Positions 26,938 to 37,401 of a stretch of DNA of 37,401 bases are shown piece after piece. Every line of letters starts with the position of its first letter. Positions within the stretch are counted from its first letter, which is position 1. The stretch is from positions 1 to 37,401 of IMG/VR virus record IMGVR_UViG_3300009185_000004; one strand, written 5' to 3'. The notes below the pieces were generated by a model. The model searched no databases. It was not told the origin of the DNA and saw only the letters and a list, made by a program, of their open reading frames with translations. The stretch comes from a virus. The position numbers and the translations under genes are program-made.

Positions 26938-26966
26938 ATTATACCACAACTTTTTAAGAATGTCAA
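26938..26966 (-). promoter_or_regulatory. Late sigma-70 promoter for terminase/portal operon, with leader hairpin
   Basis: On the minus strand TTGACA (complement of 26961-26966), 17 bp, TATAAT (complement of 26938-26943), extended as TATAATTGTTATATG. Just downstream, GCATCTA and TAGATGC (26910-26927) form a 7-bp stem near the 5' end of the mRNA. This is the head of the whole virion operon. Confidence 0.87.
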
Positions 26967-27162: not shown

Positions 27163-27184
27163 AAGCCAGGAACAAACCTGGCTT
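27163..27184 (-). terminator. Terminator hairpin downstream of pqqA
   Basis: AAGCCAGG (27163-27170) pairs with CCTGGCTT (27177-27184), an 8-bp perfect stem with a six-base loop. Read on the minus strand it lies 18 bases after the pqqA stop and is followed by TGTTATTTATATT, a T-rich if imperfect tail. On the plus strand no T run follows, so it serves pqqA better than the opposing promoter. Confidence 0.65.
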
Positions 27185-27202: not shown

Positions 27203-27277
27203 CTATCGATTCATAACATACATTGTCACTTCGAAACCGAAGCGTAACTCGGTGACGCTAGGTTGAGTCCATTTCAT
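27203..27277 (-). CDS. pqqA: PqqA, pyrroloquinoline quinone precursor peptide
   Basis: A 24-residue ORF: opens MKWTQPSVTELRFG, then GFEVTMY, ending NR. It matches the PqqA family along its whole length (M-x-W-x-x-P-x-x-T-x-LR-x-G-x-EVT-x-Y-x-x-NR), including Glu16 and Tyr20 spaced E-x3-Y, the two residues that PqqE cross-links and that become PQQ. Full ribosome binding site AAAGGAG (complement of 27284-27290) six bases upstream, its own promoter (27312-27340) and a terminator (27163-27184): a complete monocistronic unit. No pqqB, C, D or E is in the genome, so the peptide must be processed by host enzymes. PQQ serves periplasmic dehydrogenases such as methanol dehydrogenase; boosting them during infection is inferred. 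Confidence 0.93.
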   Translation of the reverse strand: MKWTQPSVTELRFGFEVTMYVMNR

Positions 27278-27340: not shown

Positions 27341-27906
27341 GCGTATTATCATTAACTTCTAGTAAGCGAGGAATGCCCTTAAAGGCATTTCGAGCTACCT
27401 TCGTATCAAATCTAAAAGAAAATCGTTCCTAGACCCCTTCCTGTGATTCCTAGGGCTATTATTATAACCAGTTCCCTATGCCATATATCACTTATTTTTA
27501 ATTTATAGTTGTCGATGTTTGATAAGGTCCCTTTTTTCCTTCTGATATATTTGGTGTGTACCTATAAAAATATTCCAGTAGCCAACCAATACCCCCCCCC
27601 TATACTTTACATCTGATTAAAAAGTAATCAGTTGTTAATTAACAAGTGATTAAACTTTAAGCACTCATTAAAGCTCTTATGATTGAGCTCATACTCATGG
27701 TCATAATAGTTGAGTAATTATGTCGGGTAATTTGGAGATTTTTTAAGTTGAGTGAGTGAAAGTCTTTTTACTGGTACACATAGCACCATGATAAGCACCA
27801 CTTATCACACCATAAGAACTGATATATAAAACATATAAGACATTGAGACCATTAAGAATATGCACAAAAATTGAGCACAAAAAGAAAATTTGAATAATTC
27901 AAAGCA
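27341..27906. other. Non-coding control region with palindromes and a C9 tract
   Basis: No credible gene on either strand. Visible elements: a small stem AATGCC/GGCATT (27371-27388); three TTCCT-x-x words (27426, 27438, 27447); a run of nine C (27592-27600); a 28-bp near-perfect palindrome (27625-27652, TAATCA-G-TTGTTAATTAACAA-G-TGATTA, one mismatched pair); a hairpin TGATAAG/CTTATCA (27789-27807); and TTTGAATAATTCAAA (27889-27903). The last three lie 20 to 310 bases before the sigma-54 start, where activators bind. Composition changes near 27600 toward that of the next genes. Confidence 0.6.
27625..27652. repeat. 28-bp palindrome, candidate activator/operator site
   Basis: Two 14-base arms, TAATCAGTTGTTAA and TTAACAAGTGATTA, are reverse complements except for one symmetric G-G position. 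The flanks extend weakly (TTAAA ... TTTAA). Its length and symmetry fit a dimeric or tetrameric DNA-binding protein. It lies about 300 bp upstream of the sigma-54 start site. Confidence 0.6.
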
Positions 27907-27923
27907 TTGGCACGATTATTGCT
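27907..27923 (+). promoter_or_regulatory. Sigma-54 (RpoN) -24/-12 promoter
   Basis: TTGGCACG-ATTA-TTGCT reproduces the sigma-54 consensus TGGCACG-N4-TTGC(A/T) in every fixed position, with exactly 10 bases between GG and GC. Expected start near 27934, about 86 bases before the small membrane peptide gene. No comparably good sigma-70 promoter is seen for the 28020-30632 genes (a TATAAT at 27977 lacks a -35). Sigma-54 promoters need an ATP-driven activator, not visible in this genome. Confidence 0.78.
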
Positions 27924-28019
27924 TTGACTTTGAAATATATTTGATTAATCGTGTATTTTTATTGATTGTTTTGAATTATAATCGGGGAGTGCACATTCGC
28001 ACATATATAGGGACAAAAA

Positions 28020-28100
28020 ATGAAAGCTCAATATGTAATTGGTTTCATACTTAGCGCAGTGACATTCTATGGTTTTATTTTTTTATTACTTTCACTATAA
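28020..28100 (+). CDS. Small single-TM peptide, 26 aa
   Basis: ATG 28020 preceded by AGGGACA. The product is almost all membrane helix (VIGFILSAVTFYGFIFLLLSL) after a short MKAQY start. It ends 11 bases before the next gene, whose leader carries the similar GGGGACA. Such peptides often act as membrane-tethering or toxic/holin-like factors; here none can be assigned. Short, so confidence rests on the leader, spacing and sensible hydrophobic pattern. Confidence 0.5.
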   Translation: MKAQYVIGFILSAVTFYGFIFLLLSL

Positions 28101-28111
28101 GGGGACACATC

Positions 28112-29665
28112 ATGCACGGACTTATTAAACTTAACGGACTCTATGGGGTCAGTCGAATTGACTTAAAAGAGTTTATTTATATGAATTTAATCTCATTCAA
28201 TTTGAGAGTCAGGACTCACTCATTACAGCAAATAAAAATTGCTACTCTTAAGAGTGGTCGAAAGTTGTCAAAGTATGTCGCATCAATAAAGCGAAATAAC
28301 ACACCGACAGAGGTCGTCTGTGATTATTTAAAGCATCTTAGAAGTAATGTCATAGCACCGACAGTCAATAAAATTGAGCCCTGTATTTTTAGAGTTGAGA
28401 GACTTTGGACTGACAATGGGTGGGAGTACATTGACCCGATAAAACTCGGTATGTCTGAAAATTCAAATAAACTTTTCGGACATTTTCAACCTCTGCACAA
28501 TCTACACAGGTCAGTCACAGAGCCGTCAATGGTCGCATATTATCCGAGTTTAAGACACATGAGAGAGAGTCGGGAGGTCAAAACTCGTCTCGGTAAGTAC
28601 CTCACCACATATAAAAATGAATTCAATCTCTCTGAAAGTGACATTAAAACAGTGGTCGAGGGCTTTAACGGATTTTTAAATTCACAATCGGGGTGGGTGG
28701 TCTCATTCATTGACCATGATGACCCGACAGGGTGGGTCAATGCTTATGCAGATGTGAGTGCTTTGAGGACTTGTATGTCAGGGGAAAAGGCTGTCAGAGT
28801 GTATGCACATAGTAAGTCAGTCTTAAAACTTGCTGTTTTAAAAAATGCTGAGGGCTCTATTATTGCTCGGTCGATTGTCAGAGATGATGACAGAAAAGGT
28901 TATTTAAGAGTGTACCCAGCTCCCGACAATGCACCTGAGGGCAGATTTTTAAGAGACCACTTATGCGCTGTAGGCTATAAGAATGAAATTGACCTCGACG
29001 GGTGTCTCTTACAGGCTATTGAGTCAGGGCATGGGGGATATGTCGCACCATATATTGACTCGGGTCGGACTGGTACTCAAAAAGGTGAGCTCATTACCAT
29101 TGACGGGGTGTCTTATATTGAGGTGGGGTCAGGTTATCTCGACTTAGCTATGACGGGAGGTCACACAGATGAGATGAGTACCTGTGCTGACTGTGGTGAG
29201 GGTATGACAGATGATGACTCCACTTATATTGAGTACTGCGACCACTCTGTATGTCAGAGCTGTCTCGACGATAATTATACTTATGCCTATACTCGACACG
29301 GACAAAATGACATACCAAGTGACAGGGCTGTAAGATGTCAGACTGACTCTGAGTACTATGACATTGATTATCTCTCTGAGTATGATATTTATCAGTGTGA
29401 CCATGATGAGCTTTTCTATCATATTGATGAGTTGATTGAGTGTGACGGGGGTACCTACTATGTCGGGCACTGTGTACGCCTCGACCATGAGCATGAGGAC
29501 GACAATTATTGTTTTAATGAGTTCGCACATACCTTGTCAGACGGGTCAATATGTCACAGTGATGACGCTGAGACACTTCAAAATGAGCTTAATGACTCTT
29601 ATGAGGCTGAGTGTCCTGACCATAACCCACAATTAAACAATGAAAGTGAGACAGAAAATGAATAA
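28112..29665 (+). CDS. Uncharacterised 517-aa protein with RING-like zinc ligands
   Basis: No function recognised. Residues ~1-190 are basic and helical; ~195-320 form a mixed domain with GWVNAYADVSALRTCMSGE and GYLRVYPAPDN; from ~358 come zinc ligands C358-x2-C361-x14-C376-x-H378-x2-C381-x2-C384, the first six positions of a RING/treble-clef pattern, followed by an extremely acidic, Tyr- and Cys/His-rich tail (many D-x-D, Y and C). Codon use (many TCG, GTC, CTC, GAC) is unlike the rest of the genome. Leader GGGGACA; probably transcribed from the sigma-54 promoter together with the peptidase, whose start it overlaps by eight bases. Confidence 0.8.
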   Translation: MHGLIKLNGLYGVSRIDLKEFIYMNLISFNLRVRTHSLQQIKIATLKSGRKLSKYVASIKRNNTPTEVVCDYLKHLRSNVIAPTVNKIEPCIFRVERLWTDNGWEYIDPIKLGMSENSNKLFGHFQPLHNLHRSVTEPSMVAYYPSLRHMRESREVKTRLGKYLTTYKNEFNLSESDIKTVVEGFNGFLNSQSGWVVSFIDHDDPTGWVNAYADVSALRTCMSGEKAVRVYAHSKSVLKLAVLKNAEGSIIARSIVRDDDRKGYLRVYPAPDNAPEGRFLRDHLCAVGYKNEIDLDGCLLQAIESGHGGYVAPYIDSGRTGTQKGELITIDGVSYIEVGSGYLDLAMTGGHTDEMSTCADCGEGMTDDDSTYIEYCDHSVCQSCLDDNYTYAYTRHGQNDIPSDRAVRCQTDSEYYDIDYLSEYDIYQCDHDELFYHIDELIECDGGTYYVGHCVRLDHEHEDDNYCFNEFAHTLSDGSICHSDDAETLQNELNDSYEAECPDHNPQLNNESETENE

Positions 29666-30632
29666 AAAAAGACTGCTCGACATTTTGACATACAGACGAG
29701 GACACAATTCAAAGGGTGAAAGTGCTTTCATTAAAAAGTATATGAGCAATTTTGACCCTCTCAAAAATGACAAAGGTGAAGTCCTCGCTTATGTGTATGA
29801 CAATCACAATGACAAAAAGGGTCATAAGGTTATGTGGTCGAGTCACATTGACACCATGCACAAAAAAGACCCTCACAAAATAAAACAGCAAGTATTTTTA
29901 GACACCTTTGACACAGCCTTTGTGGACGATGAGTCCGACTGTCTCGGTGCTGATAATGGTGCAGGGGTCGCACTTATGCTCGACATGATTGACGCTGACA
30001 TTGAGGGTGTGTATGTATTTCACAGAGGTGAAGAGATTGGACTGTGGGGGTCGTCTCAGATTGTCGAGACTCACCTCGATTTTATCAAGTCATTCACACA
30101 CTCGATAGCCTTTGACAGACGAGCTGAAACCTCTGTTATCACTCACCAATCGGGTAGGCAGGGCATAAGTGAGTCATTCACAGCTCAGCTCTGTAACCTA
30201 TTGTCACTCGGTTATATTGCTGACCCTACGGGTGCTTACACTGATACATACACCTATTTTGACTATGTATCCGAGTGCACCAATGTCAGCATAGGATATA
30301 TGTCAGAGCACTCAAAAAGTGAGACCCTCAATGTGTCTCATGTCGAAAAGTTGTCAGATAGATTGTGCTCGATTGACTGGAGTACTATTGACCTCATACA
30401 TGAGAGAGTGGCAGAGCCCGAGACCTTTTATAAAAAGTCCTACTATGGGTCTTATTATGATGTCCCTATGATTGATGAGCTCATGTCTTATGACACCCGA
30501 GCTCTGACAGCATGGGTCAAAAATGCTGAGCTCTCTGACATTGTGTCAGTCATTCAAAATCTGACAGACGAGGTCGCTTATTCTTATGAGTCAGACCCAC
30601 TCCCACACCTACACTCGAGGGCGTACACTTAG
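29658..30632 (+). CDS. M20/M28/M42-like zinc aminopeptidase
   Basis: 324 residues from ATG 29658 (AAAGTGAG upstream; an ATG at 29640 has none). Co-catalytic zinc-peptidase motifs in order: SSHIDTMH (H63, D65), LGADNGAGVALML (D99), FHRGEEIGLWGS (E125 general base, E126) and SIAFDRRAE (D153), with later His candidates in SEHSKSETLNVSHVE. These are the di-metal peptidases that trim peptides. No signal peptide, so it acts in the cytoplasm. Same odd codon use as its partner; followed by a strong terminator. Substrate unknown: it may process host peptides, recycle amino acids, or act with the RING-like partner. Confidence 0.85.
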   Translation: MNKKRLLDILTYRRGHNSKGESAFIKKYMSNFDPLKNDKGEVLAYVYDNHNDKKGHKVMWSSHIDTMHKKDPHKIKQQVFLDTFDTAFVDDESDCLGADNGAGVALMLDMIDADIEGVYVFHRGEEIGLWGSSQIVETHLDFIKSFTHSIAFDRRAETSVITHQSGRQGISESFTAQLCNLLSLGYIADPTGAYTDTYTYFDYVSECTNVSIGYMSEHSKSETLNVSHVEKLSDRLCSIDWSTIDLIHERVAEPETFYKKSYYGSYYDVPMIDELMSYDTRALTAWVKNAELSDIVSVIQNLTDEVAYSYESDPLPHLHSRAYT

Positions 30633-30653: not shown

Positions 30654-30682
30654 AAGCCCTCACTTTCGAGGGCTTTTTTTTT
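30654..30682 (+). terminator. Rho-independent terminator of the sigma-54 module
   Basis: AAGCCCTC (30654-30661) pairs with GAGGGCTT (30668-30675), loop of six, followed by an unbroken run of T to 30682. Lies 22 bases after the peptidase stop and closes the 28.0-30.6 kb unit. Confidence 0.92.
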
Positions 30683-30990: not shown

Positions 30991-31019
30991 TTGACAAAAA
31001 CCAATTTTACATGGAAAAT
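30991..31019 (+). promoter_or_regulatory. Sigma-70 promoter for the hydrolase/primase/helicase genes
   Basis: TTGACA (30991-30996), 17 bp, GAAAAT (31014-31019, four of six). Expected start near 31026, leaving a short leader with AAAGGAG (31047-31053) before ATG 31059. The -35 is perfect and the -10 weak, so it may need an activator or be early and moderate. Confidence 0.6.
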
Positions 31020-37194: not shown

Positions 37195-37401
37195 ATGATT
37201 ATAGAAATTATTGATGTAGGTTCACCTGAGTCAGTGAAAACTGGTAAAGGACAATATCAGACATTACAAGTGAGTTTTAAGAATGAACAAGGGCAAGTAC
37301 AAGGTAAGAAGCTTATGTCATTCAGTAACCCAACTGTATTCAAGGATATTCAGGGTTATGCTAAGGGTGATCGAGTAGATGTTCTTACTGTTAAAGAAGG
37401 T
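37195..37401 (+). CDS. Single-stranded-DNA-binding protein-like, 5' part (continues at position 1)
   Basis: Start ATG at 37195 with AAAGGAG six bases upstream. The frame runs off the end of the window and continues at position 1; across the circle it codes 161 residues. The N-terminal ~75 residues alternate hydrophobic and polar positions with a conserved-looking YWQWKAI strand, as in a small OB fold. Its place directly before the FEN exonuclease in a replication operon supports an SSB role, equivalent to T7 gp2.5. The identification is by pattern and context, not by a diagnostic motif. Confidence 0.6.
   Translation, partial: MIIEIIDVGSPESVKTGKGQYQTLQVSFKNEQGQVQGKKLMSFSNPTVFKDIQGYAKGDRVDVLTVKEG
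37279..37401. repeat. Terminal direct repeat, right copy (circular closure)
   Basis: Second copy of the 123-base end overlap, identical to positions 1-123. Joining the ends restores an uninterrupted 161-codon gene that starts at 37195 and stops at 402. Confidence 0.93.

Follow-up and report, generated by a model that had tools for sequence, protein, structure and literature searches.

Is the short motif at 27907-27923 of this phage genome a promoter for host RNA polymerase carrying sigma-54 (RpoN), and if so, which genes would it serve? The window, meaning the whole 37,401-nt stretch that was analysed, begins with 123 bases (1-123) that recur as its last 123 (37279-37401), though IMG/VR classes the record as linear; the genome is probably complete, circularly assembled and 37,278 bp long. 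The terminase, portal and major capsid genes lie on the - strand, and the genes for a helicase, a split DNA polymerase A, exonucleases and a B12-type ribonucleotide reductase lie on the + strand. These structural and replication sets diverge from a mostly non-coding region at about 26.9-28.0 kb, and a 12/12 sigma-70 promoter at 26966 precedes the leftward structural genes. Between 26938 and 27082 there are two divergent 12/12 sigma-70 promoters, each with TG ahead of the -10; the rightward one (27054) is followed about 100 bp on by an AT-rich repeat and a two-way terminator (27163-27184) and may give a short RNA. An Rfam search returned no match, no RNA-polymerase gene was noticed in a non-exhaustive scan of the proteins, and no close relative of the phage was found among isolated phages. 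The features on which the argument turns are these.

27789..27807, no strand: palindrome TGATAAG-CACCA-CTTATCA, a candidate activator (enhancer) site by prediction
27907..27923, +: putative sigma-54 (-24/-12) promoter element TTGGCACG-ATTA-TTGCT, recognised by consensus match, matrix score and conservation in relatives
27934..28019, +: predicted 86-nt leader; its TATAAT (27977-27982) and a short GTGC-N6-GCAC hairpin, which is conserved, are both retained in the related contig L027
28020..28100, +: gene 1, encoding a 26-aa hydrophobic peptide, MKAQYVIGFILSAVTFYGFIFLLLSL, from the ATG at 28020
28112..29665, +: gene 2, encoding a 517-aa protein that weakly matches a RING-type zinc finger, under the cut-off
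29640..30632, +: gene 3, encoding an M28-type zinc peptidase (Pfam PF04389; PHROG 4191 peptidase)
30654..30675, +: intrinsic terminator ending the cassette, an 8-bp stem followed by 8 T
30991..31019, +: TTGACA-17-GAAAAT, a sigma-70-like promoter for the replication unit that follows, also present in L014 and L015

The + strand at 27907-27923 reads TTGGCACGATTATTGCT. As the original prediction had it, every fixed position of the RpoN -24/-12 element is matched, with GG at 27909-27910 (-25/-24), GC at 27921-27922 (-13/-12) and exactly 10 bases between them; these positions put the predicted +1 at 27934. TGGCAYRN4TTGCW has one exact match in the 37.4-kb record on both strands, which is this site, and 100 dinucleotide shuffles gave a mean of 0.03 strict matches. 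We also scanned with a position matrix derived from 28 sigma-54 ChIP sites in intergenic DNA of Salmonella LT2, as given in PMC3844500, with the spacer left unscored. On this Salmonella matrix the element scored 22.7 bits, where 22.9 is the maximum, and so tied with the best training site, and the second-best position in the window scored 15.3 bits, about 7 bits lower and under all 28 training sites. No score equalled it in 80 Mb of sequence simulated at the window's composition by a first-order Markov model, a figure that, like the shuffle mean, concerns one motif picked by the reader out of many noticeable ones. The matrix scan and chance calculation that had been suggested both favored the sigma-54 assignment, and the comparative evidence given below is independent of that choice among motifs. 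A dyad around the element, CAAAGCA..TGCTTTG, was rejected as the real signal: it is present in the window and lost in the related contig L028 while the -24/-12 sequence stays.

The element was also said to be non-coding, correctly oriented and close before a three-gene operon, and this description held: its stretch is non-coding, it points toward a gene with an unremarkable 86 nt of predicted leader to the ATG at 28020, and the three genes at 28020, 28112-29665 and 29640-30632 are followed by the terminator at 30654-30675. Because of that terminator and the separate promoters for replication (30991) and structural genes (26966), the putative sigma-54 unit is, as read from the sequence, a closed cassette. 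Cassette genes 28112-30632 have 42-43% G+C, compared with 35% in the replication genes, and relative to the latter they are rich in GAC, GTC, CTC and TCA and poor in GAA, GTT, AAC and GGA, a composition that looks as if the cassette had been acquired from elsewhere. The close relatives L008, L014 and L015 have other genes at its place, and in L002 and L027 an unrelated 54-aa hydrophobic peptide occupies the position of gene 1. Homologues of the 517-aa protein and the zinc peptidase are adjacent and in the same order in Klebsiella phage KPV811, where the pair precedes a primase/helicase, and in Rhizobium phage Pasto, where it adjoins an ArdA-like antirestriction gene; both phages are Autographiviridae by record taxonomy. 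A structure model of the 517-aa protein had a mean pLDDT of 30 and was unusable.

Four contigs carry the cassette, namely, the window, L002, L027 and L028; in L029 and L182 the sequence surrounding the element is that of L028. L002 has the window's element unchanged, and L028 has it with one substitution, a T for the C at position Y, which tolerates it, with the bases after the element diverging. In L027 the flanks align and about 21 bases spanning the element are missing. The block at 27941-28000, which includes the TATAAT at 27977, is conserved in L027 as well as in the other three carriers. Beyond the carriers, the corresponding intergenic region of L037, whose terminase is 87% identical, contains TTGGCATGATTATTGCA ahead of other genes; the TTGGCA there also has a TATAAT 18 bp on, so this site is ambiguous. 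Of the 29 close-family loci in which the junction is present, only 4, two of them duplicates, carry the element, and five have a TTGACA sigma-70 promoter at that place instead.

The motif is not confined to this family. At least 120 viral stretches carry TTGGCAYGATTATTGCW, compared with 13 for the reversed pattern. Among the matches listed, loci fetched with the motif held 275 TGGCAYRN4TTGCW sites (124 of them the bait itself) versus 1 for the reversed pattern; other spacer lengths gave 0-1 sites versus 275 for the 4-base spacer, and the sites varied at Y, R, N4 and W, the very positions that the sigma-54 consensus leaves free. About 26 of the loci so listed are distant relatives of the window phage, nearly all of which have sites in the divergent junction upstream of terminase. 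Because the motif had been the bait in this set, we built a second one from terminase only, comprising 57 relatives of L108 fetched without the motif and including L232 and L233, the seed contig and its near-copy. Sixteen of these 57 loci have junction sites, 1-4 copies each; 36 of the 38 copies point away from terminase, and the reversed-pattern control gave 0 in 488 kb. With the Salmonella matrix at ≥16 bits, the junctions of the same relatives gave 38 sites pointing away from terminase and 5 toward it, and gene bodies gave 2 in 250 kb. Conservation of the element, its specific spacing, its bias to one strand and its location in relatives therefore give good comparative support to the sigma-54 reading.

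In the distant relatives the elements form tandem arrays of 1-5 copies, 25-65 bp apart, and inverted copies also occur. An additional observation comes from L312 (G040:C1:1-20000; from the 115,947-bp contig of L125), where 19 kb contain twenty TGGCAYRN4TTGCW elements, all on one strand and in 17 cases 48-85 nt upstream of an ORF start, with the extended consensus TTTGGCAYR-N4-TTGCATATA; here an entire phage region looks to be run from sigma-54-type promoters. On a terminase tree of 73 rows, in which motif-selected and unselected rows are mixed so that the share of positives has no meaning, presence of the element switches at least 14-16 times. L305 and L306 have identical terminases, and L305 lacks the element while L306 has three. 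About 1.25-1.6 kb upstream of its terminase, where L306 has the array, L305 has DnaA-box-like repeats (TTATCCACA). The switches on the tree, together with the difference between L305 and L306, imply that the elements move with exchangeable junction segments.

Next, we considered what would activate such a promoter. Sigma-54 needs an activator. In domain searches the window's proteins contained neither a Sigma54_activat domain nor a sigma-54 DNA-binding domain, and a phage-encoded activator or sigma-54 was ruled out for that reason, which bears out the earlier statement that no phage enhancer-binding protein is seen and extends it to sigma-54 itself. Across 30 other records there were four marginal PF00158 matches, in three records only, and no PF04552 match in the 26 of those 30 that were scanned. 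Because sigma-54 requires an activator and the phage encodes none, the element would depend on host RpoN holoenzyme together with a host activator; a phage with neither protein would borrow those of its host. The candidate site for the activator is the palindrome, whose center lies 111 bp upstream of the -24 GG, compared with a range of about 70-150 bp for sigma-54 enhancers. It is retained in L002 and L028 (where the loop differs), and its arms are broken in the element-less L027. An activator site kept in step with a sigma-54 promoter would be expected to show this pattern, which, as a single loss event, is only suggestive. No IHF sites were found with a simple consensus. The original prediction had placed the module under host nitrogen, flagellar or stress activators. 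The part of this that calls for a host activator agrees with the lack of a phage one, but the sequence separates none of the three classes and offers only the candidate palindrome. Since PspF governs the E. coli response to phage infection (PMC3844500), a stress-type activator triggered by infection is an attractive candidate by analogy.

Given these data, we think it likely that the element is a genuine host sigma-54 promoter of the accessory cassette. Host RpoN-RNA polymerase would bind TTGGCACG-N4-TTGCT as a closed complex, which a host enhancer-binding ATPase, perhaps acting from the palindrome 111 bp upstream, would open so that transcription begins near 27934. The transcript would cover a self-contained accessory cassette (a small membrane peptide, the 517-aa protein and the zinc peptidase) and end at the 30654 terminator; the function of the cassette and the timing of its expression we infer. 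With sigma-70 promoters on the core units (structural leftward and replication rightward), only the cassette would be tied to the state of a host activator, and in a host without a matching activator it would be silent or reliant on the downstream TATAAT region.

That region is the basis of the main alternative, that the operative cassette promoter is of the sigma-70 type (TATAAT at 27977 or TTGAAA-N18-TATTTT at 27930-27959) and that the -24/-12 element is secondary or conditional. The 27941-28000 block with its TATAAT persists in all four carriers, even in L027 where the element is gone, and this conservation, like the small number of close-family loci that have the element, counts against our preferred explanation; relatives also use TTGACA promoters at the corresponding position, and 27930-27959 is a weak sigma-70 match. 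However, the TATAAT lacks both a recognisable -35 at 16-18 bp and a preceding TG, and the 27930-27959 match is 9/12, the level of shuffled sequence. The TTGGCA at 27907 was likewise rejected as a sigma-70 -35, since neither the window nor L028 has a suitable -10: in the window, only TTGAAA or TGAAAT lies 17-18 bp downstream, and nothing resembling TATAAT at 16-18 bp. Because a sigma-70 promoter would also leave the conservation of the -24/-12 sequence in L028 and its recurrence in distant relatives unexplained, we regard this alternative as unlikely. Sigma-54 promoters do not usually stand in tandem at 25-65 bp, and the tandem and inverted copies, along with the DnaA-box-like repeats that L305 has in place of an array, would fit a site for another host or phage protein of like preference, for example at a replication origin, with no promoter involved. 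Such a protein would have to follow the sigma-54 consensus at fixed and free positions alike, share its strong strand bias toward early genes and produce the fixed distance to ORF starts in L312, and we consider it distinctly improbable. A chance match was rejected on the shuffle (0.03) and Markov/matrix figures. That the element is accidental or a non-functional relic, as its single copy in the genome and its absence from most close relatives might indicate, is scarcely credible against an expectation of at most 0.03 per genome, its retention in L028, its presence in L037 and its recurrence at the corresponding place in relatives.

Leads to the host came from an unlisted gene at 27203-27277 (-) for PqqA, the pyrroloquinoline quinone precursor peptide (MKWTQPSVTELRFGFEVTMYVMNR; NCBIfam TIGR02107, 1.8e-10), homologues of which occur in the corresponding region of over 25 loci of the close family. 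A phage that has been assigned to Methylophilaceae is also reported to encode PqqA (PMC7678222). These data hint at a host that makes PQQ and is perhaps a methylotroph, which we treat as a lead and not as a result. In Methylophilaceae, sigma factors are fewer in pelagic members than in those from sediment (PMC6794327), from which one may hypothesize a link between host rpoN and the type of promoter that a phage carries. A first scan of genome bins for the host gave no match, and a second gave distant contigs whose bins disagreed with one another (Acidimicrobiaceae, Planctomycetaceae, Flavobacteriales and others) and was unusable.

The element resembles those of the Salmonella LT2 regulon (PMC3844500) in having TGGCAYR-N4-TTGCW with GG-N10-GC in an intergenic position ahead of a gene, with the palindrome as a candidate enhancer site at a customary distance; it differs in lying on a phage and in the tandem copies of its distant relatives. 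Among phages, PMC5053324 calls sigma-54 use rare, names Pseudomonas phage YuA as the precedent and, citing Ceyssens et al. 2008, describes YuA as strictly dependent on host sigma-54. Like the window phage, YuA has no sigma-54 of its own; it is reported to use host RpoN, as the window phage would, and its record has three high-activity promoters labelled '-24/-12 consensus sequence'. In contrast to the window's element, which precedes an exchangeable accessory cassette, the YuA promoters sit among structural genes, and no position in the YuA genome reaches 12.2 bits on the Salmonella matrix, versus 22.0 for the window's element. What would be new relative to YuA is that, in a different group of phages, an element of consensus grade by sequence stands before a cassette that is exchangeable. 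The rarity asserted in the original prediction appears doubtful, with sigma-54-like elements common in environmental phage contigs and YuA dependence already reported (PMC5053324). Our literature search, mostly outside subscription papers, found no paper on sigma-54 elements across environmental phages.

Taken together, the presence of this putative switch at the corresponding place in related phages, often in tandem, suggests that some genes are tied to host RpoN across an entire phage group. More tentatively, a widespread phage group and unrelated environmental phages might place early or accessory cassettes that are exchangeable under host sigma-54, through consensus -24/-12 elements in one copy or in tandem, with no activator of their own. 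Because presence of the element differs between phages with identical terminases, sigma-54 use would be an exchangeable trait that is testable with natural pairs. If the reading is true, expression of the cassette would be gated by the state of a host activator or by an activator that infection triggers. If the elements work, sigma-54 use would be a recurrent strategy in environmental phages, and part of the infection program would be coupled to the host signals that enhancer-binding proteins read.
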